From Halobacteriovorax sp. GB3 (GTDB taxonomy: Bacteria; Bdellovibrionota; Bacteriovoracia; Bacteriovoracales; Bacteriovoracaceae): DNA of 64,000 bases. Below the pieces are notes generated by a model. The model saw nothing but the letters and a program-made list of their open reading frames with translations. It did not search any database and had not been told where the DNA came from. The stretch is from positions 372,001-436,000 of the forward strand of contig NZ_JAQSLN010000003.1 in assembly GCF_028649655.1 (NCBI RefSeq). Reading direction: 5' to 3'. The position numbers and the translations under genes are program-made. This document shows positions 3,485-26,819 of this stretch, piece by piece; the stretch's first letter is position 1; each line of letters starts with the position of its first letter.

Positions 3485-5293
3485 TTACGACTCTTCTCGT
3501 TTTTGGCCTGCTAGCTTAAGCTTATAGAAATATCCCTTCTCCTCTATAAGCTTGGCCGGTGGGCCCTTTTCAATGATCTCACCTTTTTCAAACACAAGCA
3601 GTTCATCACAATTTTCTATTGTCTCCAAACGGTGTGCAATCATCAATGTTGTGCGATCTTTCATAAGCTTTAAAAGTGCTGAGTGAATGATTTTCTCCAT
3701 AGTTGGATCGATATTGGCCGTGGCCTCATCGAGAATCAGTATGGCCGGATCAGTGAGAAAAATACGACAAAGACAGATTAACTGTTTCTGACCAACACTT
3801 AAATTGGCCCCACCATCAAGTAAAAGGGAATCCAGCGTTAACGAAGACTCGCTCATTACCTTATGAAGACCCGTTTGCTTAGCAAGCCTTAGAATTTGCT
3901 CGTCTGTCTTTGCAGGATCAAGACTCAAATTCTGCCTTAATGTCCCTTGAAATATTATGGCATCTTGAGAGACGACACCAATTTGCGAGCGAAGTTTCGA
4001 GCGATCAAAACTTCTAAGGTCGTGGCCATCAATGAAAATAGCGCCCTTTTGAAATTCATAGAGTCTAGATAAAAGAGAAATTGTCGTCGTTTTTCCACAA
4101 CCAGTTGTTCCAACGAGACCAACACATTTTCCCTTAGCAATATCAAAGGTAATATCCTTTAAGACCCACTTTTCAGCTTCATAGCTCATTGATACATTTT
4201 TAAATTCAATATGACCTTCAATCAAATTGTCTTTTAAAAGAATATCATTTCTTTTAAAAACAGTTTCCTCTGTATCAAACTCAAGAAAATTAGCAACTCT
4301 CTCAGCACTTGTGAAGGCCTGAAAGATAACGTGAATCTCACGAAAGAGATTCATAATAGGAAAGAAAAAGCGTTCACAATAACGAATAAATGCCACAAAG
4401 AGACCTACACTTAAAGTTCCCTCCAGCACTCTTGATCCTCCCATATAAGCAAGAACCAGAAGAGGTGCAGAACATAGAAGCGACAAAAGAGGCCTAGACC
4501 AAGAGTGCAGAAAGTTAGCTTCAAGAGAGGCCTTTATATGTTGATTAATTGTCCCTTGATATTTATTCATCGACCAGCCTTCAAGACCAAAACTTCTAAT
4601 CACAGCAAGTCCATCGATGTACTCAGTGAGCTTTGAATTAATGTCGCTTGAAAGACGTGACATCTTACGGTTGATATTTTTAACTTTTGTTCGAGTTAAA
4701 TAGACAAAAACGAGGGCCGGAAGTACTGAAGCAACTAGATAGAATGAAAGAGTCACATCCGTTGTAAACATCGCCACCATGGCCATAATCGCCATAAACG
4801 TTGATGAGACAAGTCTTCCAAGAGAACTTGTAAAAAACTCCTCGAGTCCTTCCACATCATGAGTCATCCTTGTAATCACTCGCCCCTGTGGCCAGCGATC
4901 AAAAAAACTCAAAGGCAGAGATTGAAGATGGGTAAAGAGTTTTTTTCTAATATTTAATATAACTAAACTTGCTCTTGTCGAAAGGATAAGGCGTCCATAG
5001 TAATTTGAAATAAGAGCAAAAATCTCTAAAAGAACAACCGAGATAGCAAGACTTGTGGCCTTTTTAGCATCGAGTTCCAAAAGACCTTTATCTACGAGCT
5101 CCCCCGTAAGACGACTAGATAAGAGAGAGAGAACGCTAAACGAGATAAGAATTACGAGGGCCAAGATTAAAAAGAGATAATTGCCCTTTGCAAATTTTAA
5201 GAGATACACTAAAGAGCGCCAATCACTCATCTTTTTCTTATTTTCATTTCTCTCGTCTTGATCATCGAGTGCGAGATATTGATTATTACTCAT
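3485..5293 (-). CDS. ABC exporter half-transporter, consensus-site Walker B (MdlB/SmdB-like)
   Basis: This 602-aa protein has an N-terminal six-helix type I exporter domain (about residues 30-320) and a C-terminal ATPase. Visible motifs are Walker A (VGTTGCGKTT), signature LSVGQKQ, Walker B LILDEA with the catalytic Glu, and the switch His in IAHR. The signature is off-consensus (LSVGQ instead of LSGGQ). The next gene in transcription order is upstream and overlaps by 8 bases; its motifs are complementary, so the two should form one heterodimer. E. coli MdlB shows similar features. The substrate cannot be inferred. It lies in the inner membrane. Confidence 0.93.
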   Translation of the reverse strand: MSNNQYLALDDQDERNENKKKMSDWRSLVYLLKFAKGNYLFLILALVILISFSVLSLLSSRLTGELVDKGLLELDAKKATSLAISVVLLEIFALISNYYGRLILSTRASLVILNIRKKLFTHLQSLPLSFFDRWPQGRVITRMTHDVEGLEEFFTSSLGRLVSSTFMAIMAMVAMFTTDVTLSFYLVASVLPALVFVYLTRTKVKNINRKMSRLSSDINSKLTEYIDGLAVIRSFGLEGWSMNKYQGTINQHIKASLEANFLHSWSRPLLSLLCSAPLLVLAYMGGSRVLEGTLSVGLFVAFIRYCERFFFPIMNLFREIHVIFQAFTSAERVANFLEFDTEETVFKRNDILLKDNLIEGHIEFKNVSMSYEAEKWVLKDITFDIAKGKCVGLVGTTGCGKTTTISLLSRLYEFQKGAIFIDGHDLRSFDRSKLRSQIGVVSQDAIIFQGTLRQNLSLDPAKTDEQILRLAKQTGLHKVMSESSLTLDSLLLDGGANLSVGQKQLICLCRIFLTDPAILILDEATANIDPTMEKIIHSALLKLMKDRTTLMIAHRLETIENCDELLVFEKGEIIEKGPPAKLIEEKGYFYKLKLAGQKREES

Positions 5294-6983
5294 AGGACTT
5301 AAGCTCCAAAATATGATCGCAATACTTCAACGTTGAATCTCTATGAGCAACCCAAATAACAGTTGTCTCACTTAAAAATTCATCAATACGCTTAAGGATC
5401 TTCTCCTCTGTCACAGTATCAACGGCGCTTAAACAATCATCTAAAAGAAGAATTCTCGGTTTTCTTGCTAGAGCGCGCGCAAGGGACAAGCGTTGCTTTT
5501 GCCCACCAGAGAGATTAACTCCCCATTCACCGAGTGGAGTTAAAAGACCTTTCTCAAAGCGCTTAACATCTTCATCGAGTCCAGCTATTTTTAGGTATGA
5601 CCAAATTTCTTCATCACTCATATCTCGATCCAGACTAACGTTTGCTCGAATGGTATCGGCAAAAAGAAATGGTCTTTGGTGAACATGGGCAATCACATCG
5701 CGAAGTGATTGGTGGGAATAGTGGTGAAATTCTTTTCCTTTAAAAAAGACTTTACCTGTATAATTTCTTTCTAAACCACTTAAGATATCTAGAAGTATAC
5801 TTTTTCCACTTCCAATAGGACCTTTGATTCCCATGCGCTCTTTTGCGTGAACTTTAAAATTTAAATGCGAGATAACTTCTTCTTTTCCATCGGGAAAAGT
5901 GAAAGAGAGATCAACGATATCAAAAACAACATTATGCTTTTCTACATGATGGGCCTCTTTATAAAGAAAACTTTCTTTAGGGGCGTCATAAATATTATTT
6001 AAGCGCGAAAGACTGGCCATCCCCTTTCTCCACTCGGCAATGATATAGCCAAGCTCAATAAGAGGATCTTGGAGAATAAAGGCCAGACCGTTAATGGCCA
6101 CAAAATCCCCGACACTCATTTGCCCTTCAAAAACCTGGTAAACACCATAGCTAAAGAGAACCACGTAAACGAGAATTGTGCTTAGTCCAATGAGAGGCAT
6201 ATAAAGAAGATTAGTCTTAACGGCCAAGATCCAAGTTTTACGATAGTGAGAGGCCCCTTGAACTAAGAACTCAGTCCAAAACCTTCCAAGCTCACTGAGC
6301 TTTTGTAAACGGATACTCCCAACTGATTGACTTACAAGCTCGTTAAAATCATCGAGACTCTCTTGCGCCTTCGTGTAGCGATTTACTTGCAACGTCGAAA
6401 GTTTCTTAACTGACCATGGAAGAAAACTCATCACCAAAAGACAGAGAATCGTAAATTTCCAACTGATCGTTAACATCGTTGCAATCGTAATAATGCCAAG
6501 AAAGATTACATCCATCATCCCAACAAGAGTGAAACCAAAAAGAAAGCGCGATACTGAAACATCGGAGTTTGCAGCATTCATAAGTTTTCCCTTGGTGTAG
6601 ATCGTCTTTAGTTCATGACGTGGGAAATATCTGGCACTTTTCCAAACTTTTTCTTTTAAAAACCCGGCAGCATGGTGAGTCTGTCTGGCCAAAGTGAGAC
6701 GCCACAGCATTCTTCCTAAGGTAAGAATTAATCTCGAGGCCAAAAGAACAAAGAAAAGGGCCATGAATTTATCATGCTTTGTTCCATCATAAGAGATGGG
6801 AAAGGTATTTTTTGTGAAGAGGTCTAAAAGCCAACCCATAGCGCGGGTAAAAAAGACCTGACAAATATTTGTCAAAAGAACCGAAAGAGCTCCGGCCAAA
6901 TACCATGGCCATCTCTTTCGAACAAAATTTGTCCAAAGCTTATAATGAGGTAATTTCAAGGGGGATTCAAATTTTTTTAACAC
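5286..6983 (-). CDS. ABC exporter half-transporter, degenerate-site Walker B (MdlA/SmdA-like)
   Basis: This 565-aa protein has an N-terminal transmembrane domain and a C-terminal ATPase. Walker A is PIGSGKS, the signature is canonical (LSGGQKQRLSLARAL), and Walker B reads LLLDDC, so Asp replaces the catalytic Glu. The His switch is present (VAHRDS). In known heterodimeric exporters one subunit has Asp at this position and the partner has the altered signature, exactly as here. The start codon is GTG with no strong ribosome-binding site, so the start is less certain. It is the first gene of the two-gene exporter unit and follows lplA by 40 bases on the same strand. Confidence 0.92.
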   Translation of the reverse strand: MLKKFESPLKLPHYKLWTNFVRKRWPWYLAGALSVLLTNICQVFFTRAMGWLLDLFTKNTFPISYDGTKHDKFMALFFVLLASRLILTLGRMLWRLTLARQTHHAAGFLKEKVWKSARYFPRHELKTIYTKGKLMNAANSDVSVSRFLFGFTLVGMMDVIFLGIITIATMLTISWKFTILCLLVMSFLPWSVKKLSTLQVNRYTKAQESLDDFNELVSQSVGSIRLQKLSELGRFWTEFLVQGASHYRKTWILAVKTNLLYMPLIGLSTILVYVVLFSYGVYQVFEGQMSVGDFVAINGLAFILQDPLIELGYIIAEWRKGMASLSRLNNIYDAPKESFLYKEAHHVEKHNVVFDIVDLSFTFPDGKEEVISHLNFKVHAKERMGIKGPIGSGKSILLDILSGLERNYTGKVFFKGKEFHHYSHQSLRDVIAHVHQRPFLFADTIRANVSLDRDMSDEEIWSYLKIAGLDEDVKRFEKGLLTPLGEWGVNLSGGQKQRLSLARALARKPRILLLDDCLSAVDTVTEEKILKRIDEFLSETTVIWVAHRDSTLKYCDHILELKSYE

Positions 6984-11539: not shown

Positions 11540-11589
11540 AATTATCAGGTTTACTTTTACACAATTAAGTGAAGTTGGAAAGGACGAGT

Positions 11590-12555
11590 ATGTTAAACTT
11601 CCCTTCCATTTTTGAGAGCGTAAGTGATCTGGACAAAGGACAGATCGATGCCTTATTGCTTCTGGCCCACAAATTCAAAAATCGCGTGAGCCACACTACA
11701 GACTTCACCAAGGCTAAACCTACCATCTGCACTCTCTTTCTCGAAAATTCAACCAGGACAAAGCACTCATTTCAAATGGCCTCGGAACATCTGGGCGGTT
11801 ACTTCTTTGATTTTGACGTCAAGTCCTCAAGCTTTAGTAAAGGCGAAAATCTCGAGGAGACTCTCTTAACACTCAAGTGTCAGGGAGTTGATCTTTGTAT
11901 TATAAGAAGTAATGAAAACAACCACTTAGAAAGACTGAAGGCCGCCCCTCCCCTAAGGATTATCAACGGCGGCGACGGAACTAACGAACACCCTACCCAG
12001 GCCCTTTTAGACCTCTTCACAATGCAAGAAATCGAAGGCGATCTAAATGGGAAGCGCGTGTGTATTGTAGGCGATTCTAATCACTCGCGAGTAGCGAATT
12101 CTCTTATAAAGCTCCTTCCTCTCTATGGCGTTGAAGTTTCACTTGCAGGGCCAAAAGAGTTTGCTGATCAATGCGCAAAGAAGCATGGTTTAAAACATTT
12201 TGAAAAATCGAGTGAGTACCTAAAAGAGTGCGATATTGTTTACCTCTTAAGAGCACAGCTTGAACGTCACACGACAGGTGATAAAGCCGCACATCAAAAC
12301 TTATTAATCTCTTATAATAAAGACTACGGACTAAATTCACAGGCATTGAAAGAGGCCGGGACAAATCAGAGTATTTACCACCCTGGCCCATGTAATATCG
12401 GTATCGAACTTACTCATGAGCTTATGAGAACTTCTTCTTATAAAGGTTATGAGCAAGTGAAGCACTCAATTTTTATGAGAATGGCCATTATTCAGTCCAT
12501 TCTACAAAACGGAGATAAGAACGTTGGCAAATTTACGAATTTATCGACCAACTAA
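11590..12555 (+). CDS. pyrB: aspartate carbamoyltransferase, catalytic chain
   Basis: PyrB condenses carbamoyl phosphate with aspartate, the second step of de novo pyrimidine synthesis. The carbamoyl-phosphate loop LENSTRTKHSF (Ser54-Thr55-Arg56-Thr57), GDGTNEHPTQALLDLFT, LRAQLERH and YHPGP are all present. The ATG at 11590 gives 321 aa (E. coli 311) and has AAGGA five bases upstream; an in-frame GTG at 11569 is less likely. No pyrI regulatory chain is next to it. The fused carbamoyl phosphate synthase follows 93 bases later, so substrate maker and user are adjacent. Confidence 0.96.
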   Translation: MLNFPSIFESVSDLDKGQIDALLLLAHKFKNRVSHTTDFTKAKPTICTLFLENSTRTKHSFQMASEHLGGYFFDFDVKSSSFSKGENLEETLLTLKCQGVDLCIIRSNENNHLERLKAAPPLRIINGGDGTNEHPTQALLDLFTMQEIEGDLNGKRVCIVGDSNHSRVANSLIKLLPLYGVEVSLAGPKEFADQCAKKHGLKHFEKSSEYLKECDIVYLLRAQLERHTTGDKAAHQNLLISYNKDYGLNSQALKEAGTNQSIYHPGPCNIGIELTHELMRTSSYKGYEQVKHSIFMRMAIIQSILQNGDKNVGKFTNLSTN

Positions 12556-12648: not shown

Positions 12649-15600
12649 ATGAACGAATTGGATTTTCAAAAAAGTCTTAAAAACACGCGTGCCTTTTTAC
12701 ACTTTAAAGATGGAACTAAGTTTCAGGGTTGGCTCAATATTGAGTCCGATGATCCAAGAATCAAAAATGGAATTTTCGCTGAAGCGGCCTTCACAACAGG
12801 AATGAGTGGTTATCAAGAAACGGCCACAGACCCAAGCTTTCTAGGTCAATTTATTATTTATACCAATGCCCATATTGGACAATACCCTTCTAACAAACAA
12901 TGGGAACAATCTCAGTCTATTCATGCTAAAGCGTTAATTGCTCGTAACTTTTCTGCCAACGACTTTCTTTTAAAATGCGATGTCCCACTCTTTTCAGGGC
13001 TCGATACGAGAAGTCTTGTTCGCTACATTTCAACAGTGAGTGAGGATCAAAGAGCAATACTCACTTTGAGCGAACAAGCACCTAGCGAAAATGAATTCAT
13101 CGATCGCATGCTTGAGTGTAACCAATTAAATAAAGTCAGCATAAAGGAAAAAAAGACAATCATTGAAGGAGAAAGGCCAATTGCTCTTATAGACTATGGA
13201 GTAAAAAATGGCATAATCGAACATTTAAAGCAAATAGGGCTTCCACTCATTCAACTTCCCTATAATTCAAGTTCAAAAGAAGTTCTCTCTCACAATCCAA
13301 GATTGATTTTTCTATCTAATGGACCAGGGGATCCTAAAGAGTATTACGATCAAATAGAAGTCGTTAAAGAGCTGTTGGAATCAAAAATACCTATTCGAGG
13401 AATTTGTCTTGGTCACCAACTTCTCACTCTTGCTCTAGGCGCGAAAACCATTAAACTCCCTTTTGGACAAAGGGGCGCAAATCATCCTGTGCTTGATCAT
13501 ACAAATGGGGAGATTCTTATTACATCTCAAAACCATGGTTATGCCAGTGACGAGAAATCCCTCCTGGATATAAAAAATTCTAATCCACTTGGAACAACTC
13601 TTCATATAAGTGCTAGAAGTTTATTTGATAAATCAGTTGAAGCGCTCTCAAGTGATGACCACCTAGTTAAATCTGTTCAATATCATCCAGAGGCCAATCC
13701 AGGACCTCTCGATGGGGCAAAGTTTTTTAGTGAAATTAAAGATTATCTTGAAAATGGAGCTAAAGAAAAACTCCCTGAAGATCTTTTACACCCACTAAAA
13801 GATCTTGAAGAAAAGAAAACCTACCATGGAGAAATTAAAAAGATTCTTCTCATAGGTTCCGGTCCAATTAAGATTGGTCAAGCGAGTGAATTTGATTACT
13901 CAGGTACTCAGGCGCTAAAAAGTCTCAAAGAAATCGGGCTAAGTGTAGTTCTTCTCAATTCAAATCCGGCCACCATTATGACCGACCCGAATATGGCCGA
14001 TGCAACTTATATTGAGCCAATTACAAAAGAGACGATCATAAAGATTATAGAAAAAGAAAATGTCGATGCCCTCCTCTCAACAATGGGTGGACAAACGGCA
14101 CTCAACTTGTGTGTTGAGCTTGAAAAAGAAGGACTTTTAAAAGAGAGAAACGTCACGCTTTTAGGGGCCAATGTCGATACAATTGAAAAGACAGAAGACC
14201 GTGAGCTCTTTGCAAAAGAGCTCGACGGTCTAGGCTATGCGACAGGAAAACGCTTTAGAGCAAAATCAAGACAAGAGGCCCTTAGTCTTTCAAAATCAAA
14301 AGTGGGCTTTCCACTCATTATTAGAAGAGACTTCGCCCTTGGAGGAAAAGGTGCGGCCCTTGTTCATGAAATATCAGAACTTGAAGAAGTTTTAGATGGT
14401 GATATCAAGTATCCAATCACCATGGAAAAATCTCTTTTAGGATGGAAAGAAGTTGAACTTGAAGTCATGGTTGATAGAGAAAAAAATGGACTTGTTATCT
14501 GCTCCATTGAAAATGTGGACCCCTGTGGAATTCACACAGGTGACTCTATAACCGTTGCTCCGGCCCAAACGATTAGTGATTACTGCTATCAAAAACTAAG
14601 AACAATGTCTCTTACCATCGCAAAACATATGAATGTCGTTGCAGGGGGGGCCAATGTACAATTTGCCATAAACCCTCTTGATGAAGATGATATTATTGTC
14701 ATCGAAATGAACCCTAGAGTCTCTAGATCATCAGCACTTGCCTCAAAGGCCACGGGTTATCCCATTGCAAAGATCTCAGCACAACTTGCCGTTGGATACA
14801 CACTTAAAGAAATTTTAAACGATATCACAAGAAACTCTCCCGTGGCCTTTGAACCAACACTTGATTATGTCGCCGTTAAAATTCCCATTTTTCCTTTTAA
14901 TAAATTTCCGACAAGTTCTAAAACACTCGGTCCTCAAATGAGATCTGTTGGAGAAGTCTTGGCCTTAGGCTCAAGTTTTAACGAGGCCTATATGAAGGCC
15001 TTAAGATCAACTGAATTAGGTCTTGAAATTCCTCAACTATCAAATCTGAAATCATCTCCGACAGTTATTGATGAAGCTTATCTTGAAAAGAGGCTACAAA
15101 CAGCAAACGAGCTCTCCCTTCTCACAGTAATGGAGGCGCTTAGAATAGGAATGGATAAAGAAAGAATTTGTGAACTCTCCAATATGACTGCTTGGTTTGT
15201 TGATCAAATGGAAATTCTAACATCCAAGGAAAATGAAATTGAACAAGACAAGGCCATTACAGTTGATAAAATTCGCTCTTTAAAAGAGCTTGGTTTTTCT
15301 GATAAACATATTGCCCTAAAGTGCGACAAGGGACTTAGTGACATTCTCTCTTTTCGCTACAAGCACAATATAGTTCCCGTTTATAAGGCCGTTGATACTT
15401 GCTCTGGAGAATTTGCCGCTAAAACGCCGTATTTCTACTCCACTTATCAAGTTGAAAATGAGGCCATCTCCTTATCTAAGAGCGACAAGAGTGTCGCCAT
15501 TTTCGGATCGGGGCCAAATCGAATTGGGCAGGGAATTGAATTTGATTATTCCTGTGTAAAAAGTTGCACGCACCTTAGAGAAAATAGCATTAAAGCAATT

Positions 15601-17058
15601 ATGATTAACTCAAATCCAGAAACAGTTAGCACAGATTATGACAGCTCAGATAGACTTTATCTCTCCCCGCTTTTTAGTGAGGATCTCTTTGACATTCTCT
15701 TCAACGAAAAGCCCATGGGAGTGATCAGTTCTTTTTCTGGTCAAACAGGAATTAATATCAGAGAACATTTAGAAGCGGAATTTCGAAAAGAAATCTTTGA
15801 CATTAACTTCTATGGACCAAGCCTTGATCTTCTCGATTTAACAGAAGATAGAAAACGCTTTTACGAGATTACAAAGAAAGTTCCTCTTTCGCATACCAAA
15901 TCTAAAGAAGTCGCTGGCCATAAAAAAGTTGTCAACGCCATGATCGAGATTGGGCTTCCTATCATCATTAGACCAAGCTATGTCATCGGTGGAGAGAGTA
16001 TGTATATCTTTCACCAGCATAGCGAGATCGAGAATTTACCAGAAACGCTAAAAGAACAACTTCACCACTCTTCCACTCTCTTTCAAGTAGAAACCTATCT
16101 GGATGGAGCACTGGAGTACGACGTTGATCTCATTAGAGATCACAAAGGCCATACTATTTTTACTGTGTGTGAACACATTGAACATGCAGGAGTTCACTCG
16201 GGAGATTCAGGAATGATCTCACCTCCAGTGCAACTTACATCAAAGATGTATAAAAAAATGAAAGAAATCTCTATTGCCCTAGCTAACGAACTCGATGTCA
16301 TAGGACCTATTAATTTTCAATATGCTGTTAAAGGTGAAGAGATCTATTGTATCGAGGCCAATCCACGCGGTTCAAGAACAATTCCTTTTCTTTCAAAAGC
16401 GGCCAATAAGAACCTTGCGGCCCTAGCAACTGATGCCCTTCTTGGAAAGGAAATTGATAATTATGATCGAGAGAAGGCCAAATACTTCTGCGTCAAACAA
16501 TCAACATTTCCTTTTGATCGCTTCGTTCAAGACAATATCATTCTAGGACCTAAAATGAGATCAACTGGTGAAACTCTAGGAATTGATTCCGATAAAGATC
16601 ACGCCATCTTAAAATCTTATCTTGGAAATTACCCTGGCATTCATGAGCCAGGAGAGATCCTCTTTTCTCTTGCTGACAAGAATAAAGTGCAGGTTCTTCC
16701 CTACTTGAAAATGCTTAAGATGCTAGGCTATGAATTCATTGCCACACCAGGAACGTGGGAGTACATAAAAAAACAAGGCCTATCATGTAAGAGAGTTTGC
16801 AAGATTGGCCAACTTGAAGGTGTTCAGATGGGAGAGGTTTTAAAGAGTGATCGCTTGAAAATGGTCTTTAATACTCCTGAAAATCAAGGACAGTCAAAAT
16901 CTGATGGCGAATTCATTCGAAATTCGGCAATCCAATATGGTGTTCCTTGCTTTACAAGACCAGAAAATATCATTGCCGTCATTGAGTCGATCGTTGGCTC
17001 GAGTGATAAAGAGCTTGCTCCAGTGAGTTTACAAGAAGTTATTAGGGAGGCTAAATGA
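12649..17058 (+). CDS. carAB: fused carbamoyl phosphate synthase (CarA-CarB in one chain)
   Basis: One uninterrupted 1469-aa frame carries both subunits of carbamoyl phosphate synthase, which makes carbamoyl phosphate from glutamine, bicarbonate and two ATP. Residues 1 to about 375 are the glutaminase: CLGHQL with nucleophile Cys253, and YHPEA with His346 and Glu348. A linker of about 20 residues leads into the first synthetase half (IGSGPIKIGQASEFDYSG, about residue 400). The second half begins near residue 948 (FGSGPNRIGQGIEFDYS), and an MGS-like allosteric domain runs from about 1345. E. coli uses separate 382- and 1073-aa proteins; the sum fits. The last four bases overlap pyrF as ATGA. 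I see no stop or frameshift at the junction near 13830. Confidence 0.97.
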   Translation: MNELDFQKSLKNTRAFLHFKDGTKFQGWLNIESDDPRIKNGIFAEAAFTTGMSGYQETATDPSFLGQFIIYTNAHIGQYPSNKQWEQSQSIHAKALIARNFSANDFLLKCDVPLFSGLDTRSLVRYISTVSEDQRAILTLSEQAPSENEFIDRMLECNQLNKVSIKEKKTIIEGERPIALIDYGVKNGIIEHLKQIGLPLIQLPYNSSSKEVLSHNPRLIFLSNGPGDPKEYYDQIEVVKELLESKIPIRGICLGHQLLTLALGAKTIKLPFGQRGANHPVLDHTNGEILITSQNHGYASDEKSLLDIKNSNPLGTTLHISARSLFDKSVEALSSDDHLVKSVQYHPEANPGPLDGAKFFSEIKDYLENGAKEKLPEDLLHPLKDLEEKKTYHGEIKKILLIGSGPIKIGQASEFDYSGTQALKSLKEIGLSVVLLNSNPATIMTDPNMADATYIEPITKETIIKIIEKENVDALLSTMGGQTALNLCVELEKEGLLKERNVTLLGANVDTIEKTEDRELFAKELDGLGYATGKRFRAKSRQEALSLSKSKVGFPLIIRRDFALGGKGAALVHEISELEEVLDGDIKYPITMEKSLLGWKEVELEVMVDREKNGLVICSIENVDPCGIHTGDSITVAPAQTISDYCYQKLRTMSLTIAKHMNVVAGGANVQFAINPLDEDDIIVIEMNPRVSRSSALASKATGYPIAKISAQLAVGYTLKEILNDITRNSPVAFEPTLDYVAVKIPIFPFNKFPTSSKTLGPQMRSVGEVLALGSSFNEAYMKALRSTELGLEIPQLSNLKSSPTVIDEAYLEKRLQTANELSLLTVMEALRIGMDKERICELSNMTAWFVDQMEILTSKENEIEQDKAITVDKIRSLKELGFSDKHIALKCDKGLSDILSFRYKHNIVPVYKAVDTCSGEFAAKTPYFYSTYQVENEAISLSKSDKSVAIFGSGPNRIGQGIEFDYSCVKSCTHLRENSIKAIMINSNPETVSTDYDSSDRLYLSPLFSEDLFDILFNEKPMGVISSFSGQTGINIREHLEAEFRKEIFDINFYGPSLDLLDLTEDRKRFYEITKKVPLSHTKSKEVAGHKKVVNAMIEIGLPIIIRPSYVIGGESMYIFHQHSEIENLPETLKEQLHHSSTLFQVETYLDGALEYDVDLIRDHKGHTIFTVCEHIEHAGVHSGDSGMISPPVQLTSKMYKKMKEISIALANELDVIGPINFQYAVKGEEIYCIEANPRGSRTIPFLSKAANKNLAALATDALLGKEIDNYDREKAKYFCVKQSTFPFDRFVQDNIILGPKMRSTGETLGIDSDKDHAILKSYLGNYPGIHEPGEILFSLADKNKVQVLPYLKMLKMLGYEFIATPGTWEYIKKQGLSCKRVCKIGQLEGVQMGEVLKSDRLKMVFNTPENQGQSKSDGEFIRNSAIQYGVPCFTRPENIIAVIESIVGSSDKELAPVSLQEVIREAK

Positions 17059-17759
17059 TGAATCGAATCATCGTTGCCCTTGATGGTATGAGTAAAGAGC
17101 AAATATTTACTTATCTCGATGAGATAAAGGGTGAGATCAATTTTGTTAAGATTGGAATGGAGGCCTATTATAAATATGGCCGAGAATTACTCATTGAAAT
17201 TAAGAATCGATATGATGTAAGTCTTTTTCTCGATTTAAAACTTCACGATATTCCCAATACAGTGAAAGGGGCCATACGCTCGCTTGAAGGTCTCCCAATA
17301 GAGTTTCTAACAGTTCATCTACAAGGTGGAAAGAATATGCTTAGAGAGGCCAAGAAACAAAAAGACATCTCCCTTCCACGGACAAAATTACTTGGAGTCA
17401 GTTACCTAACAAGCTTAGATGAACAGGACTTTTTAGAAATCTGGAATACAGAAAAAGAGGATATTGAAGACTCATTTATAAGACTTTTTAAAATTGCCGA
17501 GGATTGTAAACTCGAGGGTATTGTTTGCTCGGCCGTTGAGGCCACTCTGGTTAAAGAGAGATTTAATCTTCAAGTCATTAGCCCAGGGATTAGATTAAGA
17601 GATGATTTAAAGGCCAATAAGATTGGTGATCAAAGGCGCGTGCTTTGTGCTAAGGACGCTTTAAGCAGAGGTTGTGATTATCTGGTGATTGGACGCTCCT
17701 TAACAACTAAAGAGCGCCCTTACAAAGAGAGTCTTAGTCTCCTAAAAAAAGAATTATAA
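17055..17759 (+). CDS. pyrF: orotidine 5'-phosphate decarboxylase
   Basis: PyrF converts OMP to UMP, the last step of de novo UMP synthesis. The catalytic block FLDLKLHDIPNTV supplies Asp60, Lys62 and Asp65. IIVALD and VKIG at the N-terminus and VISPGIR with IGRSLT near the C-terminus form the phosphate-binding barrel ends. The 234-aa length is normal for the short bacterial class. The start overlaps the carAB stop by four bases, implying translational coupling. The 3' end overlaps the convergent gsk gene by six bases. Confidence 0.95.
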   Translation: MMNRIIVALDGMSKEQIFTYLDEIKGEINFVKIGMEAYYKYGRELLIEIKNRYDVSLFLDLKLHDIPNTVKGAIRSLEGLPIEFLTVHLQGGKNMLREAKKQKDISLPRTKLLGVSYLTSLDEQDFLEIWNTEKEDIEDSFIRLFKIAEDCKLEGIVCSAVEATLVKERFNLQVISPGIRLRDDLKANKIGDQRRVLCAKDALSRGCDYLVIGRSLTTKERPYKESLSLLKKEL

Positions 17760-21232: not shown

Positions 21233-24200
21233 TTAGTCAAGATAACCACCAGCAGGGATGACACAGCGAAAACCAACATCGGCAAAGCGCCCAGTGGTAT
21301 CAGCATCATCTTCACATGGTTTTAAAGAAAAGTGATATGTTCCAGCACCATTTCCATCGAGATAACTACCACCACTAGCAAGACCTCCACAACGAGAACT
21401 ATTTGTTGTAGCGCTTATTTCATTCATATTCACATTGATACTGTCTTCATGTAATTGAGAAAGCGTGATCCCAGAAGATGTTCCAATTTGAACGAAAGAG
21501 CTAAGGGCCTCAGATGTTGCGAACGTTGTTGGAATTGAACCATCAATTGGAAGTCCCATCGCAACAGAAAAGCGAGACGCATTGAAATTTAGACCTCTAA
21601 AGAGCCAGTTTTCAAGGTTAGCTCCACAGCCAGAACCATTGTCATCACAAGGTCCTACATCGCCATCGAAATTATAATTCACAACACTATCGCTTCCATC
21701 AGCATAAGTTAAATCGTTTGTCGTTGAATTAAGTTCGTAAACCGAGTTAGCAGAGTCGAGAATTGGTGTACAAGTATAAGCTCCATTTGCACAGATAAAG
21801 CGCTCGGCCGTCCACTCTGATACGTTACCAATCGTATCTTGAAGACCAAATTTAGAAACACATGTATTTGTATAATCACTCCCTGTCATAATAGAGCGTA
21901 CAGAAGAGCTCTTTGTCGCCGTAATTGTAAAGAGAGCATTACTATTTGGAGAATCTGAATCAGTAAAAAAGTCACCAAGTCCATCAGCACTTGAAGTGTT
22001 ACACTTGGCCTGAACATCAAGCCCTAATCCTGACTCATAGCTCGTTGCCGTCGAGTCGAGAAGATCATTAGTTCCAGATTCAGTAGAACTTGAAGTCAAA
22101 TACCATTCAGAATAAGAAATTTGCTCTTTTCTTGAAGGAAGTTTCGCTCTACTTGAACCGGCCATGTTCGAGTTTAAACTTACCCATGTCGATCCGTCGG
22201 CCGTACCATAACAAGTTTTGGCAGATTCATCGTAATAGAAGTCCCCAGCGTTTGCCGTGTAGAGACCATTTGGATTTGCTTGTCCGATACAGTTTTCTCT
22301 TGTGTTTGGATTCGCTGCTGCAATACAAGACTTAATAGAGAAACTACAATTCCCAACAATATTAGAAACGCTTTGAGTTCTACAAAACATATCGGCCTGT
22401 CTCTGAGCAGTATGTACAAGCGGAGGTAATTCCATTCTGTTATAATCAGCAAGGTTTTGTGTTCCATCAAATTCGTTCCATGCACCAGCATTTCTAATTA
22501 AACACTTCCCCGATTCTCTAGCATAAAAGATTGTTCCATCGACAGCACTATCAGATGCACTTGGAACATTAATTCCAAGACAAGTTCCATCAGGAGAAAA
22601 TGTACAAGCAGGAGATTTTGAAAAAGGACATCCCGCTTCAAAACGATCGACAATCAGATCACTTCCAAGATCATAGTAATTGGAACCAGGTACATTATGA
22701 GTACCACCAAACCCCTCGTATGCACAACGATAGTGATTTGAACTATCAGGGCTTAAGAGCATTTTTTCACATTGAGTTTTATTGGCCATCCATCTATGAA
22801 CCAAAGACTTATTATCTCCTGGAACGAGAACTCTTAAGTTTTGAAAGATCTCTGTAGTAGGAGCAACAAATTGATTTGAAGTACCATTTTCAAGCACTAT
22901 TGGCTTAACTTGATATTGATAAACAGTATTAGGAGTAGGCGCAATATGTGAATTTGATTCATTGTCATAGTAATAAGTCTGTATTGCACTAATTGTACTT
23001 TTATTTATTGGCGTTTCAAAATCATACTCTTCAAAAGGAGCTTTTCTATAAACATTGTAACCAACAATAGATCCACCATTTACACTGAAAGCACTCCAAT
23101 CTAAGAAAACATTTCCAGTGGCCGTGTAGCTTTTCCAGTCATTATTCGTTGTACCTGTGGCCTGGTAGCAAATATTATTTGTACGATCCCAATACTGAGT
23201 ATCGACCATCTGTGGAGTAATTGATCCAATCGGAGATCCATTTCCAATACATGATTCTCCGGTACACCCCGAAGCATAAACAGAAGCGGATGCCTGACAA
23301 TAAGTTTCTACTTTCGTCCAATCACCTGTCGTTTGACTATTACTAACGTAACACTCATTAGTATCACTCTTATAATAAATAGCATTTTGTCCATCGGCTG
23401 CAATAGCATTGGAAACGACACTTGGATCAAGAGTTCCCTGACACTCGCCTCCACCGTTACATGAATTTTTACTGTAAGAACATGAATAGTTTTGATTACT
23501 AACAATTCCTACGCGGTTTACAAGCGGGCCATGGGCCTTTACATTTTCCCAGTTCCCGTGAGTTGCAGAGACATCGTTAACGACAACCTTAAAGCTAAGA
23601 TCAACTGTATTTGTTCCATCACTTAATGTGAGAACGAGATCACTTTCACCAACAAGAGAAGAGACAGGTGTGATAACAATTTTTATATCTTCACTATCAC
23701 TACTATTAGTTGTCACTGCTTCTATATTATTATTCGAATAAGCTCCCGAAGAGAGAACTTCATTAGTTCCATGATAAATTCTAACATTGAAAGCATCTGC
23801 AGGAATAAGGTTTGTATCCGAACTCGTTAGAGAAACGATTTGTAAAGATTCAGAATCTTCATCGATTCCACCGAGAGTTCCTCCCCCTTCATCGATGCGA
23901 ATTCTCTTTATTGTCGCAACTTCACGCTGAGTTAATGTGATTGTTTCAATCCCATCATCAGTAGCAACTTGCCAGTCATTATTAGAACTTGTTCCTGTTG
24001 AAACATAGCAAGTGGCCGTTTGTTGCTCGTAATAGCGAATCCCTACGGTCTTTGGAGTTATTGAACCGACAGGAGATCCTGTACCGATACAACCGTTGAG
24101 GTTGTTACACTCTGGCGCTTCATTAAAACTAGAATACTGACAAAGAACAGGGGCATCGTTAACAGCACTTATATCAAGCATAACCGTTGCAGAGTGAGAA

Positions 24201-26536
24201 CTAAGAGAGCCATCAGAGATAGAATACGTGAATGAATCAACACCATTAACTGGTATCACTTGAACATTGGCCGTCATCGCTTCACTAGAACCCATAGCTG
24301 AGACGAGAGTTGAGGGACTTGGTGATGTTACAGAAATGATTCCAGCGGCCCTTGGGTTAGCATTGATTGCATCTGCAATTTGCTGACAATTTGTATTTCC
24401 AGAGTCGATATAAAGTTGAATATCGTAGCCATCAACAGTAGCAAAAATCTCACTGGAACTCATATCAACTTGATCAATTGTTTGAATCGTAATGGCATTA
24501 GACCAAGTTCCGCCAACAAGTGCCGTTACTTCTAAACAGCTCGCCCCCGTTCCAAGATTAAATCTTGAAACTCCGGCAGTTGATGTTCCGAAGATATTTC
24601 CATTAGATGGAATATAAGTACAATTTAGAGATCTTGTGGCACCTGAACTTTGAAGAGAACATCCTGAAAGAGTTCCCCAAGTTGGAGCGCTATCAATTGT
24701 ATAAGTATATACAGGATCAACATCACTATCGATAAATGCTCCCGTACTAACGCTAATGTAATCAGAAGTTGTCACAAGTGCTGTTGAACTCTCAGTTCCA
24801 CTTGCAGTGTGATTAACAGGGTATGGAGCAAGAGTTGGAGCACTTGCGACATTGATGGTAATAGATTCTGAATCAGTTAAAGCAGGATTTGAATTTTGAG
24901 CAATTCCCAGTGTTAAACTTAAATTTCCAGACAACGAATACTTCGGTTTAAGATCAATACTACAAAGATTTGTTACATTAGAACAAGTACAGGCTGACTC
25001 CTCATGAAAACTCGTATTACTAGAAATGCTACACGTTGTATTAAGTGCATCACCTTCTTCATCAGTAAAAGGAACATTGAGAGTAAAGCTTGTAAAATGA
25101 CTTGGAGTCGATGAGAAAGTAACGCCACTTGTATTTAAAACAGGAGCATCATCGTTAGCAACGATATTGATATTTGCAACTGCGTATTCTGAAAAACTTC
25201 CATCATTATCAAGAACTCTGTAACGAAAGCTTGTATATGCATCAACTGAAGAGTTTAAGACTACAGATTGATTAGGCACTTGAATAACTGACCCCTGAGA
25301 GGCCAGAGGAGCTGCTTGAACAAGCTTTCCAGCATAAAAGTCGGCATTAATCGCATCACTAATTTCTGTCGCAGTTTTAGCATTAGGCCAAAATTTAACA
25401 TTGATCGTCTGTGCACTTACACTAATTTCAATTTCTTCTTTGAAATCAATATTTGTTTTTTCAAGAAAATTAATCTGAATTGAATCACCACTTGAACCAT
25501 AAGCGATGGCCTCAAAACGAATATTTCCTAAGTTATTCGAGGCCACACCGCCCGAAACACCATTAGATATTCCATCAACAGATCTGTATGTACAAGAGAG
25601 ATCTGTTCCAAAAATAACCTGGCAACCAGAAACACTTCCAAGTGCAGGTTGTTCAATATCAATGGAAACGATACTTCCATCAATATCATCGAGAGCATTT
25701 GAAAAATAGAGAGAATAATCTCTAGCAAGGGATGTTGTATGCTCCGTAAATGAAGCAACATTAACATTTGTTGCAACAGGGATATCATTTTTTCTTTGAA
25801 CATTAATTGATATTTGCGATGAAGTTGACTCTCCATCGATTGGATCTACGATGACATAAGTAATTCCAAATTCTCCAAAAGCATTCTTGACTGGCTTAAC
25901 GGCAATCTGGCAGACTCCCCCAACACATTGACATCTATTTTCGATATCACGTGAAACACTGGCAAAGTCATTCACTAAACTCTCAAGAGAATCCCCATAA
26001 GAACTTGTGACAGTGTATTGTTTGGCAACATTAGCAATCTGAGTCGCACGATTTAAAATCGTTTTAAGATGAGAGTCAATCTCACTGTTGAGAGTGGAAA
26101 CTTTTAGATCTTCAAAGGCCGTTTCAACTTGCGCAATAAGAACATCAACAGAACCAGTTGAAGGAGCAATAAGAGCTTCTACTTTATCTTGAACAACATC
26201 CGCATAATTATAAAGCGTCTTTGCCTGAGAGTAGAGATCATCAAAGACAACAGGGGCCACGACTTCAATTTGAGCACTAGACTCTTCGACTCGACAGTAC
26301 TCTGCCTTATCACCATTTGGATCATTGTATTGAAGCGTGTGAATAACTGGAGCTGAATCTTCTTCTAAAGTGATATTATCAATTGTCGTGGCAGGAGCAG
26401 ATCGCGTACTAACACATTTTTGAGAAACCTTATCAAAGGCCTCACCAAAGTCACAACTGACTTTTGTTTTTCCCTTCTCTGGAGTACAAGAACTGAAAAG
26501 AGCTAAAGAAATAATGAATAAAATCCCAATTTTCAT
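21233..26536 (-). CDS. giant surface lipoprotein with cadherin-like repeats and an FGE-like C-terminal domain
   Basis: From the ATG at 26536 the protein is 1767 aa and begins with a lipoprotein signal (MKIGILFIISLALFSSC); an in-frame ATG at 26584 would add 16 residues. The N-terminal two-thirds contain repeated Ig/cadherin-like units marked by NDIPVA, NDDAPVLN and AVNDAPVL and by DGxxS-type loops. Next come five Cys/Trp modules and an FN3-like segment (NVFLDWSAFS...YNVYRKAP). The last 300 residues resemble a formylglycine-generating-enzyme/sulfatase-modifying fold (DTIGNVSEWTAERF, GGSYLDG, VGFRCV). Such proteins are usually surface adhesins or carbohydrate binders; catalytic activity is not implied. 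Its role is unknown. Confidence 0.88.
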   Translation of the reverse strand: MKIGILFIISLALFSSCTPEKGKTKVSCDFGEAFDKVSQKCVSTRSAPATTIDNITLEEDSAPVIHTLQYNDPNGDKAEYCRVEESSAQIEVVAPVVFDDLYSQAKTLYNYADVVQDKVEALIAPSTGSVDVLIAQVETAFEDLKVSTLNSEIDSHLKTILNRATQIANVAKQYTVTSSYGDSLESLVNDFASVSRDIENRCQCVGGVCQIAVKPVKNAFGEFGITYVIVDPIDGESTSSQISINVQRKNDIPVATNVNVASFTEHTTSLARDYSLYFSNALDDIDGSIVSIDIEQPALGSVSGCQVIFGTDLSCTYRSVDGISNGVSGGVASNNLGNIRFEAIAYGSSGDSIQINFLEKTNIDFKEEIEISVSAQTINVKFWPNAKTATEISDAINADFYAGKLVQAAPLASQGSVIQVPNQSVVLNSSVDAYTSFRYRVLDNDGSFSEYAVANINIVANDDAPVLNTSGVTFSSTPSHFTSFTLNVPFTDEEGDALNTTCSISSNTSFHEESACTCSNVTNLCSIDLKPKYSLSGNLSLTLGIAQNSNPALTDSESITINVASAPTLAPYPVNHTASGTESSTALVTTSDYISVSTGAFIDSDVDPVYTYTIDSAPTWGTLSGCSLQSSGATRSLNCTYIPSNGNIFGTSTAGVSRFNLGTGASCLEVTALVGGTWSNAITIQTIDQVDMSSSEIFATVDGYDIQLYIDSGNTNCQQIADAINANPRAAGIISVTSPSPSTLVSAMGSSEAMTANVQVIPVNGVDSFTYSISDGSLSSHSATVMLDISAVNDAPVLCQYSSFNEAPECNNLNGCIGTGSPVGSITPKTVGIRYYEQQTATCYVSTGTSSNNDWQVATDDGIETITLTQREVATIKRIRIDEGGGTLGGIDEDSESLQIVSLTSSDTNLIPADAFNVRIYHGTNEVLSSGAYSNNNIEAVTTNSSDSEDIKIVITPVSSLVGESDLVLTLSDGTNTVDLSFKVVVNDVSATHGNWENVKAHGPLVNRVGIVSNQNYSCSYSKNSCNGGGECQGTLDPSVVSNAIAADGQNAIYYKSDTNECYVSNSQTTGDWTKVETYCQASASVYASGCTGESCIGNGSPIGSITPQMVDTQYWDRTNNICYQATGTTNNDWKSYTATGNVFLDWSAFSVNGGSIVGYNVYRKAPFEEYDFETPINKSTISAIQTYYYDNESNSHIAPTPNTVYQYQVKPIVLENGTSNQFVAPTTEIFQNLRVLVPGDNKSLVHRWMANKTQCEKMLLSPDSSNHYRCAYEGFGGTHNVPGSNYYDLGSDLIVDRFEAGCPFSKSPACTFSPDGTCLGINVPSASDSAVDGTIFYARESGKCLIRNAGAWNEFDGTQNLADYNRMELPPLVHTAQRQADMFCRTQSVSNIVGNCSFSIKSCIAAANPNTRENCIGQANPNGLYTANAGDFYYDESAKTCYGTADGSTWVSLNSNMAGSSRAKLPSRKEQISYSEWYLTSSSTESGTNDLLDSTATSYESGLGLDVQAKCNTSSADGLGDFFTDSDSPNSNALFTITATKSSSVRSIMTGSDYTNTCVSKFGLQDTIGNVSEWTAERFICANGAYTCTPILDSANSVYELNSTTNDLTYADGSDSVVNYNFDGDVGPCDDNGSGCGANLENWLFRGLNFNASRFSVAMGLPIDGSIPTTFATSEALSSFVQIGTSSGITLSQLHEDSINVNMNEISATTNSSRCGGLASGGSYLDGNGAGTYHFSLKPCEDDADTTGRFADVGFRCVIPAGGYLD
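22183..24091 (-). repeat. five related ~40-residue Cys/Trp modules within the giant lipoprotein
   Basis: Modules lie at 23972-24091, 23318-23443, 23135-23251, 22478-22582 and 22183-22289. Each reads roughly Cys-(I/L/Q)-Gly, a Pro/Gly-rich stretch (for example GSPVGSITP), an aromatic pair such as IRYYEQ or FYYDES, T/G-x-x-C-Y/L, and then Trp after 8-12 residues. The two cysteines per module suggest one disulfide. Two copies (first and third) are closest to each other. They are spread through the chain, not arranged as one tight tandem array. Confidence 0.75.
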
Positions 26537-26819
26537 AAACCCAACCGATAATTTTCCACTAAACTTATCGAATATTTTTTCCATGGCCTTAGAAACAATT
26601 CCCTTTTATTTCAAAGAGTTTCACTCAACTACCCCTTTCATTGTGCCATCATTAGAGCGTCTCTATTAAAAGTCTTAACAAAATCAATATTATCGGCAAC
26701 TTAACCCATATGCCCTCGTTCTATTAACAATTTTTCAATCCTCGCCTTGCCTAGAAAACTTTGCGACTGGACACATATGCCACCTTGGGAGAGGCGGCCC
26801 TTTTAGTTAAAATGAGTAT

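Follow-up and report, generated by a model that had tools for sequence, protein, structure and literature searches.

One open frame for both subunits of carbamoyl phosphate synthase

In the canonical bacterial arrangement, glutamine-dependent carbamoyl phosphate synthase (CPS) is encoded by two separate subunit genes, carA and carB. The locus studied here, positions 12649-17058 of a stretch of 64,000 nucleotides from Halobacteriovorax sp. GB3 (referred to below as the window), raises the question whether a bacterium can produce both subunits as one polypeptide and, if so, how such an enzyme arose and what it serves. The reading at which we arrived, and to which we assign a probability of about 0.9, is that the gene encodes a working glutamine-dependent CPS II with both bacterial subunits joined in a single polypeptide, that the subunits were fused once, in one clade of Bacteriovoracales (predatory marine bacteria and their relatives), within an operon whose gene order is older than the fusion, and that the enzyme is dedicated to pyrimidine synthesis and presumably regulated by UMP. 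This reading is built on the structure of the gene, the conserved residues, the distribution of the fused form, the conservation of the operon, the grouping of the carriers in a single clade and the presence of one transcarbamoylase in the genome.

A preliminary description of the window, made from the letters and a list of open reading frames (ORFs), had proposed that both halves are full length, carry their catalytic residues and are joined without a stop codon. The ORF call and the domain matches bear this out. The frame is open from ATG to TGA over 1469 codons on the plus strand, a Shine-Dalgarno-like AGGA lies upstream, and the computed mass of the 1469-residue product is 163.6 kDa. Two separate subunit genes are not what is found at this place. 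The gene is divided as follows:

12649-17058, plus strand: fused carA-carB gene, single-chain glutamine-dependent CPS (ORF calls, Pfam, NCBIfam, relatives)
12649-13752, plus strand: CarA (glutaminase subunit) half, residues 1-368 (Pfam, NCBIfam, alignment, structure model)
13753-13830, plus strand: linker joining the subunits, approximately residues 369-394 (length constant, sequence variable)
13831-17055, plus strand: CarB (synthetase subunit) half, residues 395-1469, with two ATP-grasp halves (Pfam, NCBIfam, alignment)
16693-16956, plus strand: MGS allosteric domain, residues 1349-1436 (Pfam, alignment)

Pfam recognized CPSase_sm_chain (residues 17-129), GATase (180-362), CPSase_L_D1 and CPSase_L_D2 in two stretches each, CPSase_L_D3 (815-889) and MGS (1349-1436). 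Among the NCBIfam models, TIGR01369 (1202 bits, cut-off 1027) and NF003671 spanned residues 394-1451 and NF009475 matched residues 14-369 above its own cut-off, whereas TIGR01368 scored slightly below its threshold (299.6 vs. 307.35 bits). The protein contains the complete CPS II domain set, arranged as usual with CarA before CarB: a small-chain domain and a class I glutaminase with a Cys-His-Glu triad, followed by two ATP-grasp halves, an oligomerisation domain and the MGS domain.

Distribution of the fused gene

The whole fused protein was used to query 129 genomes of the window's family, and the counts were read from the match table. At least 49 of these genomes, belonging to 18 genera, gave a single full-length match (57-74% identity) in an open frame of 1464-1513 amino acids; the window's own genome is among the 49, with 100% identity. 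Further family genomes showed fused-like identity, but there the gene was interrupted by contig ends. In the other genera of the family that have CPS, the subunits are encoded by separate genes of approximately 360 and 1060 amino acids. Independent ORF calling gave a single frame at each of the 36 fused loci that were fetched, representing 35 genomes (one genome was fetched twice). The named relatives carrying the fused gene include Bacteriovorax sp. BSW11_IV and DB6_IX, found in the genome-contig collection.

A sequencing error near the junction, which the preliminary description had named as the finding that would undo the fusion, is ruled out by this recurrence: the same frame is present at full length in 49 genomes. 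That an assembly or sequencing error hid a stop codon or a frameshift between two ordinary genes is an explanation that we practically discount. It would have to account for 49 full-length single frames in independent genomes, 35 of them called again independently, and for the codon-position differences between the window and BSW11_IV, which retain a coding pattern across the junction; no evidence in its favour was found. The single-chain CPS is a genuine feature of these bacteria.

Outside the family the fused form was not encountered. It was absent from a second family (66 genomes, inferred to be Bdellovibrio-like), where carA and carB were separate or only fragments were seen, and from 80 genomes of other families of the phylum, in which all readable CPS were encoded by separate genes. 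No fusion was found in 398 Pseudomonadota, where every listed match spanning both halves contains a stop codon, and the plasmid-borne CPS available as single cases from Bacillota, Actinomycetota, Fusobacteriota and Bacteroidota were all split. Broad sampling covered Bdellovibrionota and Pseudomonadota, the other phyla being represented through these single plasmid-borne cases, and we therefore make no claim of uniqueness among bacteria.

Some candidates were rejected when the DNA was read. Apparent long frames in G289 (1685 amino acids), G380 (1646), G502 (1515), G526 (1568) and G358 (822) were not fusions; they proved to be separate carA and carB genes, or carA with an upstream open extension. 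The single-piece plasmid matches of Phocaeicola (L146) and Monoglobus (L147) were also split genes.

A review of CPS states that bacterial CPS II may be a heterodimer or a single fused peptide and names no organism (Shi et al. 2018, PMC6022934). That review gives no taxon, sequence or phylogeny; here the clade, the linker, the operon and the single origin are mapped. A paper describing a CPS fusion in Bacteriovoracales was not found in a literature of which coverage was partial, and which yielded only general statements on fused CPS; the literature on pyrimidine metabolism in Bacteriovorax and Halobacteriovorax and on Bacteriovorax marinus contained nothing on a fused gene by title or abstract. 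The reservation made in the preliminary description, that the fusion might be common and already described in this clade, was thus right in its first part, whereas for the second no such paper came to light.

Two groups of genomes deserve separate mention. Eight genomes of the same family (G022, G055, G059, G060, G061, G063, G127 and G128), near-complete at 94-97%, gave no matches to CPS other than weak ATP-grasp ones. De novo pyrimidine synthesis may have been lost in these bacteria, which would then depend on prey or host. At three Bdellovibrio-like loci (L137, L138 and L139), carA and carB are separated by a gap of approximately 650-730 bases, which in L138 (G147, 6079-6726) holds an ORF of 215 amino acids without assigned function. 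A carA-orf-carB layout has been reported in Xanthomonas and Pseudomonas (PMC4619228).

The junction between the two halves

In the window protein the glutaminase domain ends at residue 362 and the first synthetase domain, CPS.A, starts at 395, with 32 residues in between. Approximately 20-26 of them are extra relative to the tails of free CarA proteins. The linker is thus somewhat longer than the approximately 20 residues given in the preliminary description. The distance from the glutaminase end to the first CPS.A strand is 31-34 residues in all fused sequences, whereas the sequence itself is poorly conserved: a single column out of 32 is invariant, and entropy averages 2.16 bits, compared with 0.5-1.1 in most catalytic domains. 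Constant length combined with drifting sequence is the pattern of a tether, in which length matters and sequence does not.

No ATG, GTG or TTG codon occurs in frame between residues 361 and 400 of the window protein, and in the 34 fused loci examined no in-frame start near the junction was preceded by a Shine-Dalgarno core, as judged by a simple core test. Because the linker offers no usable internal start, a single chain is the expected product, and judging from the gene it is the likely one. It could be argued that an internal start additionally yields free CarB beside the fused form, since close to the junction about half of the fused genes do contain some in-frame ATG, GTG or TTG, frequently a Met codon at one position of the linker. 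Given that none of these codons passed the core test and that the window has none at all in this region, we consider such dual production very improbable.

A structure model of residues 1-940 (mean pLDDT 79, pTM 0.82) superposed on the single-chain human CPS1 over glutaminase and CPS.A (TMq 0.83; 867 residues at 3.8 Å) and matched E. coli CarA with a Z value of 41.9. The model predicts that the linker would be compatible with normal docking of the glutaminase.

Catalytic and regulatory residues

The fused sequences were compared residue by residue with E. coli CarA and CarB (L122) in an alignment containing 36 fused rows. The triad Cys253, His346 and Glu348, correctly named in the preliminary description, aligns with E. 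coli C269, H353 and E355 and is invariant in all 36; in the window the Cys253 codon is at 13405-13407. The Arg, Gly, Glu, Gln, Asn and His residues checked in both ATP-grasp sites are present and nearly invariant. Exceptions relative to E. coli, seen in all or most of the fused rows, are E208, which is replaced by K, and H754, which is replaced by T or N in the ATP/carboxy-phosphate sites.

We take the ornithine site of the E. coli enzyme to consist of E783, D791, E892, L907, Y1040 and T1042, and the UMP site, under the same assumption, of K954, T974, T977, K993, N1015 and T1017. In the ornithine site, the equivalent of E892 (residue 1284, upstream of the MGS domain) is Q in 35 of 35 fused sequences and that of Y1040 (residue 1434) is C or T (C in the window), while E783, D791, L907 and T1042 are retained. 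In the split CPS of Bdellovibrionota the E892 position is occupied by A, V, L, G or S. Since E892 is replaced there too, the loss of this residue is older or wider than the fusion. In the UMP site, all fused sequences carry K954, T974, K993 and N1015, and T977 is T or S. The MGS domain of the window protein retains the equivalents of T974, T977, K993 and N1015; the equivalent of K954, residue 1346, lies just upstream of the domain. By alignment, the ornithine-binding signature is lost in the fused CPS and the UMP site is mostly retained, which suggests an enzyme that would be subject to feedback by UMP without activation by ornithine.

The operon

The genes adjacent to the fused gene are the following:

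11569-12555, plus strand: pyrB, aspartate carbamoyltransferase catalytic chain (NF002032 and TIGR00670 over cut-off, Pfam)
17055-17759, plus strand: pyrF, orotidine 5'-phosphate decarboxylase (ORF call, Pfam, NCBIfam)

Both flanking genes had been named in the preliminary description, and ORF calls, Pfam and NCBIfam agree with it. The likely start of pyrB is the ATG at 11590, which follows AAGGA and thus has a better Shine-Dalgarno sequence than the ORF start at 11569. The start of pyrF, at 17055, overlaps the stop codon of the CPS gene. PyrB of this operon is the single PF02729 match in the window's genome and the sole transcarbamoylase found there. The pyrC gene is located elsewhere in the genome (G000:C3:1117673-1118881), and so is pyrD. 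Near the operon there were no Rfam matches at gathering scores, and a scan for promoters and terminators gave promoter-like sites no more numerous than in shuffled sequences.

Wherever the flanks were covered, the fused gene stood between pyrB and pyrF. Family members with split genes have the order pyrB-carA-carB-pyrF, and in several of them carA and carB overlap by a few bases or abut. At the split locus L134 (G068), near position 3926, the TAA stop of carA is directly followed by an in-frame TTG start of carB, an arrangement one stop codon away from a fusion.

Origin of the fusion

In a tree of RpoB, the genomes carrying the fused gene form one clade (support 100/100) nested among split relatives, and the fused proteins form one clade in the trees of both halves, CarA and CarB. 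Because the RpoB clade lies within split relatives of the same operon order, these trees point to one fusion that took place in a pre-existing operon. The simplest history is a single fusion in a common ancestor of this clade, within one Bacteriovoracales family; the fused CPS is then a shared derived character of that clade. We infer that the fused gene was derived from the local carA-carB pair.

Several points weigh against our reading. The single chain is read from the gene, and the product could be cut into two parts by proteolysis. Of the UMP-site residues, T1017 is replaced by P in all fused copies. In the CPS trees the fused clade stands apart from its family's split CPS and is attached by a very long stem beside Bdellovibrio or proteobacterial CPS; with this placement, descent of the fused gene from the local carA-carB pair is likely rather than proven. 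The stem measures 1.2-1.5 changes per site in both halves, as against 0.11 in RpoB, the trees having been built from different sets of sequences. Both fast change and replacement by a transferred copy are possible causes of such a stem.

The placement could mean that the fused CPS was acquired horizontally, as a gene or as an operon, from an unsampled donor in which the fusion had already occurred, and that it replaced the local genes. The very long stem in both half trees would fit such an event, as would the identities of the fused CarB, which are no higher within the family (40.2% to its split CPS) than to the CPS of Bdellovibrio (42.6%) or Proteobacteria (42.3%), although RpoB unites the hosts. 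However, the operon order is identical in the split relatives, the fused sequences are unusually distant from everything, as expected under fast change, and a joint clade of the fused CPS with the family's split CPS was not rejected (p-AU 0.12). Nor was a fused donor found among the 398 Pseudomonadota, 146 other Bdellovibrionota or the plasmid records. Taking these observations together, we regard acquisition from such a donor as unlikely and prefer a single fusion in the local operon.

A more far-reaching scenario is offered tentatively, and we think it somewhat doubtful as a whole: one fusion would have given rise to a pyrimidine-dedicated, UMP-regulated single-chain CPS that became the sole form across an entire predatory clade. 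The sequence would have changed in a burst and ornithine control would have been lost along with it, and a fused copy from an unknown donor may have replaced the clade's own genes. If true, the step behind eukaryotic CPS II would have been repeated independently in nature.

A separate observation made in the trees concerns the locus L030 (378-4673, JACSSB010000384.1), which is labelled Phycisphaerales. Its CarA-CarB is sister, with 100% support, to that of Contendobacter (Gammaproteobacteria), and the contig is probably mis-binned.

Comparison with known carbamoyl phosphate synthases

Fusion of CarA to CarB is otherwise a hallmark of eukaryotic CPS, and kinship with the single-chain eukaryotic enzymes (CAD, CPS1), through transfer one way or the other, has to be considered. 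The two share the order of the halves and a similar linker length, and the model superposes well on CPS1, as would that of any CPS. However, the CarB part scored 738 bits against E. coli CarB and 499 against human CPS1, and identity was 35.5% to CPS1 compared with 41.8-43.6% to proteobacterial CarB. Trees of each half, built as the preliminary description had proposed and with human CPS1 as the sole eukaryotic sequence, grouped the fused CPS away from CPS1 in both cases; a split CPS from the same bacterial family was nearer to CPS1 than the fused one. A eukaryotic origin is rejected on these bit scores, identities and trees, and a homologous fusion is hardly credible. A fused CPS alone is therefore no sign of eukaryotic origin. 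The resemblance of the locus to a partial CAD gene order, suggested earlier, does not hold either, since the order pyrB-car-pyrF is ancestral, being present also in split members of the family, and both halves are of bacterial type.

Human CPS1 (PDB 5dot/5dou) resembles the bacterial protein in being a single chain with a glutaminase-synthetase linker of similar length. It differs in having no catalytic Cys (the motif C-L-G-H-Q reads S-T-G-N-L in CPS1) and in using ammonia and N-acetylglutamate; it is approximately 30-36% identical, and its fusion is of separate origin. CAD and Ura2, in which CPS II is fused to aspartate carbamoyltransferase (ATCase) and dihydroorotase (DHOase), are likewise single-chain glutamine-dependent CPS serving pyrimidine synthesis, but in the bacterium neither activity is on the CPS polypeptide: pyrB forms an ORF of its own upstream, PyrC is encoded elsewhere, and the operon order is bacterial and predates the fusion. 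With the E. coli CarA-CarB heterodimer (PDB 1bxr, 1jdb, 1c30) the fused protein shares domain order, glutaminase triad, ATP-site residues and most UMP-site residues, at approximately 43% identity for CarB and 34-38% for CarA. In contrast to that enzyme it is one chain, not two, it carries the changes E892 to Q and Y1040 to C, and it occurs in a genome without the arginine branch, in that a second transcarbamoylase was not found.

Two genomes contain a second, split carA-carB pair besides the fused CPS: G053 (L130 1526-9935, contig C100) and G120 (L131 432-4804, contig C173). In the trees of both halves this second CPS stands beside human CPS1, and its UMP-site residue K993 has been lost. Its neighbours in G053 are glycan genes (GDP_Man_Dehyd/epimerase, formyltransferase, NeuB+SAF and Wzy_C-like), and both genomes have one transcarbamoylase each. 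The second CPS may feed the carbamoylation of a surface glycan.

Proposed function

The chemistry of the fused enzyme appears to be ordinary rather than new. On the pattern of the E. coli enzyme, the CarA half would hydrolyse glutamine at Cys253, His346 and Glu348 and hand the ammonia over to the CarB half, whose first ATP-grasp half would form carboxy phosphate and carbamate and whose second would form carbamoyl phosphate. The linker of approximately 26 residues would tether the halves, fix their stoichiometry at 1:1 and keep the glutaminase docked. Improved coupling of the glutaminase through the fusion, raised in the preliminary description, is a plausible, though putative, benefit; channelling to PyrB, also raised there, is purely speculative. 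Carbamoyl phosphate would pass to PyrB, the only acceptor enzyme found, and on to UMP; with one transcarbamoylase in the genome, it should serve pyrimidines only.

The locus provides a well-defined, independent case of CarA-CarB fusion, and the split relatives of the same family offer a clean natural comparison for studying the effect of tethering on ammonia transfer and regulation.

Another gene in the window

Elsewhere in the window, on the minus strand, an ORF of 1783 amino acids (21233-26584) begins like a lipoprotein and contains several internal segments that resemble one another; it probably encodes a large secreted or surface protein.

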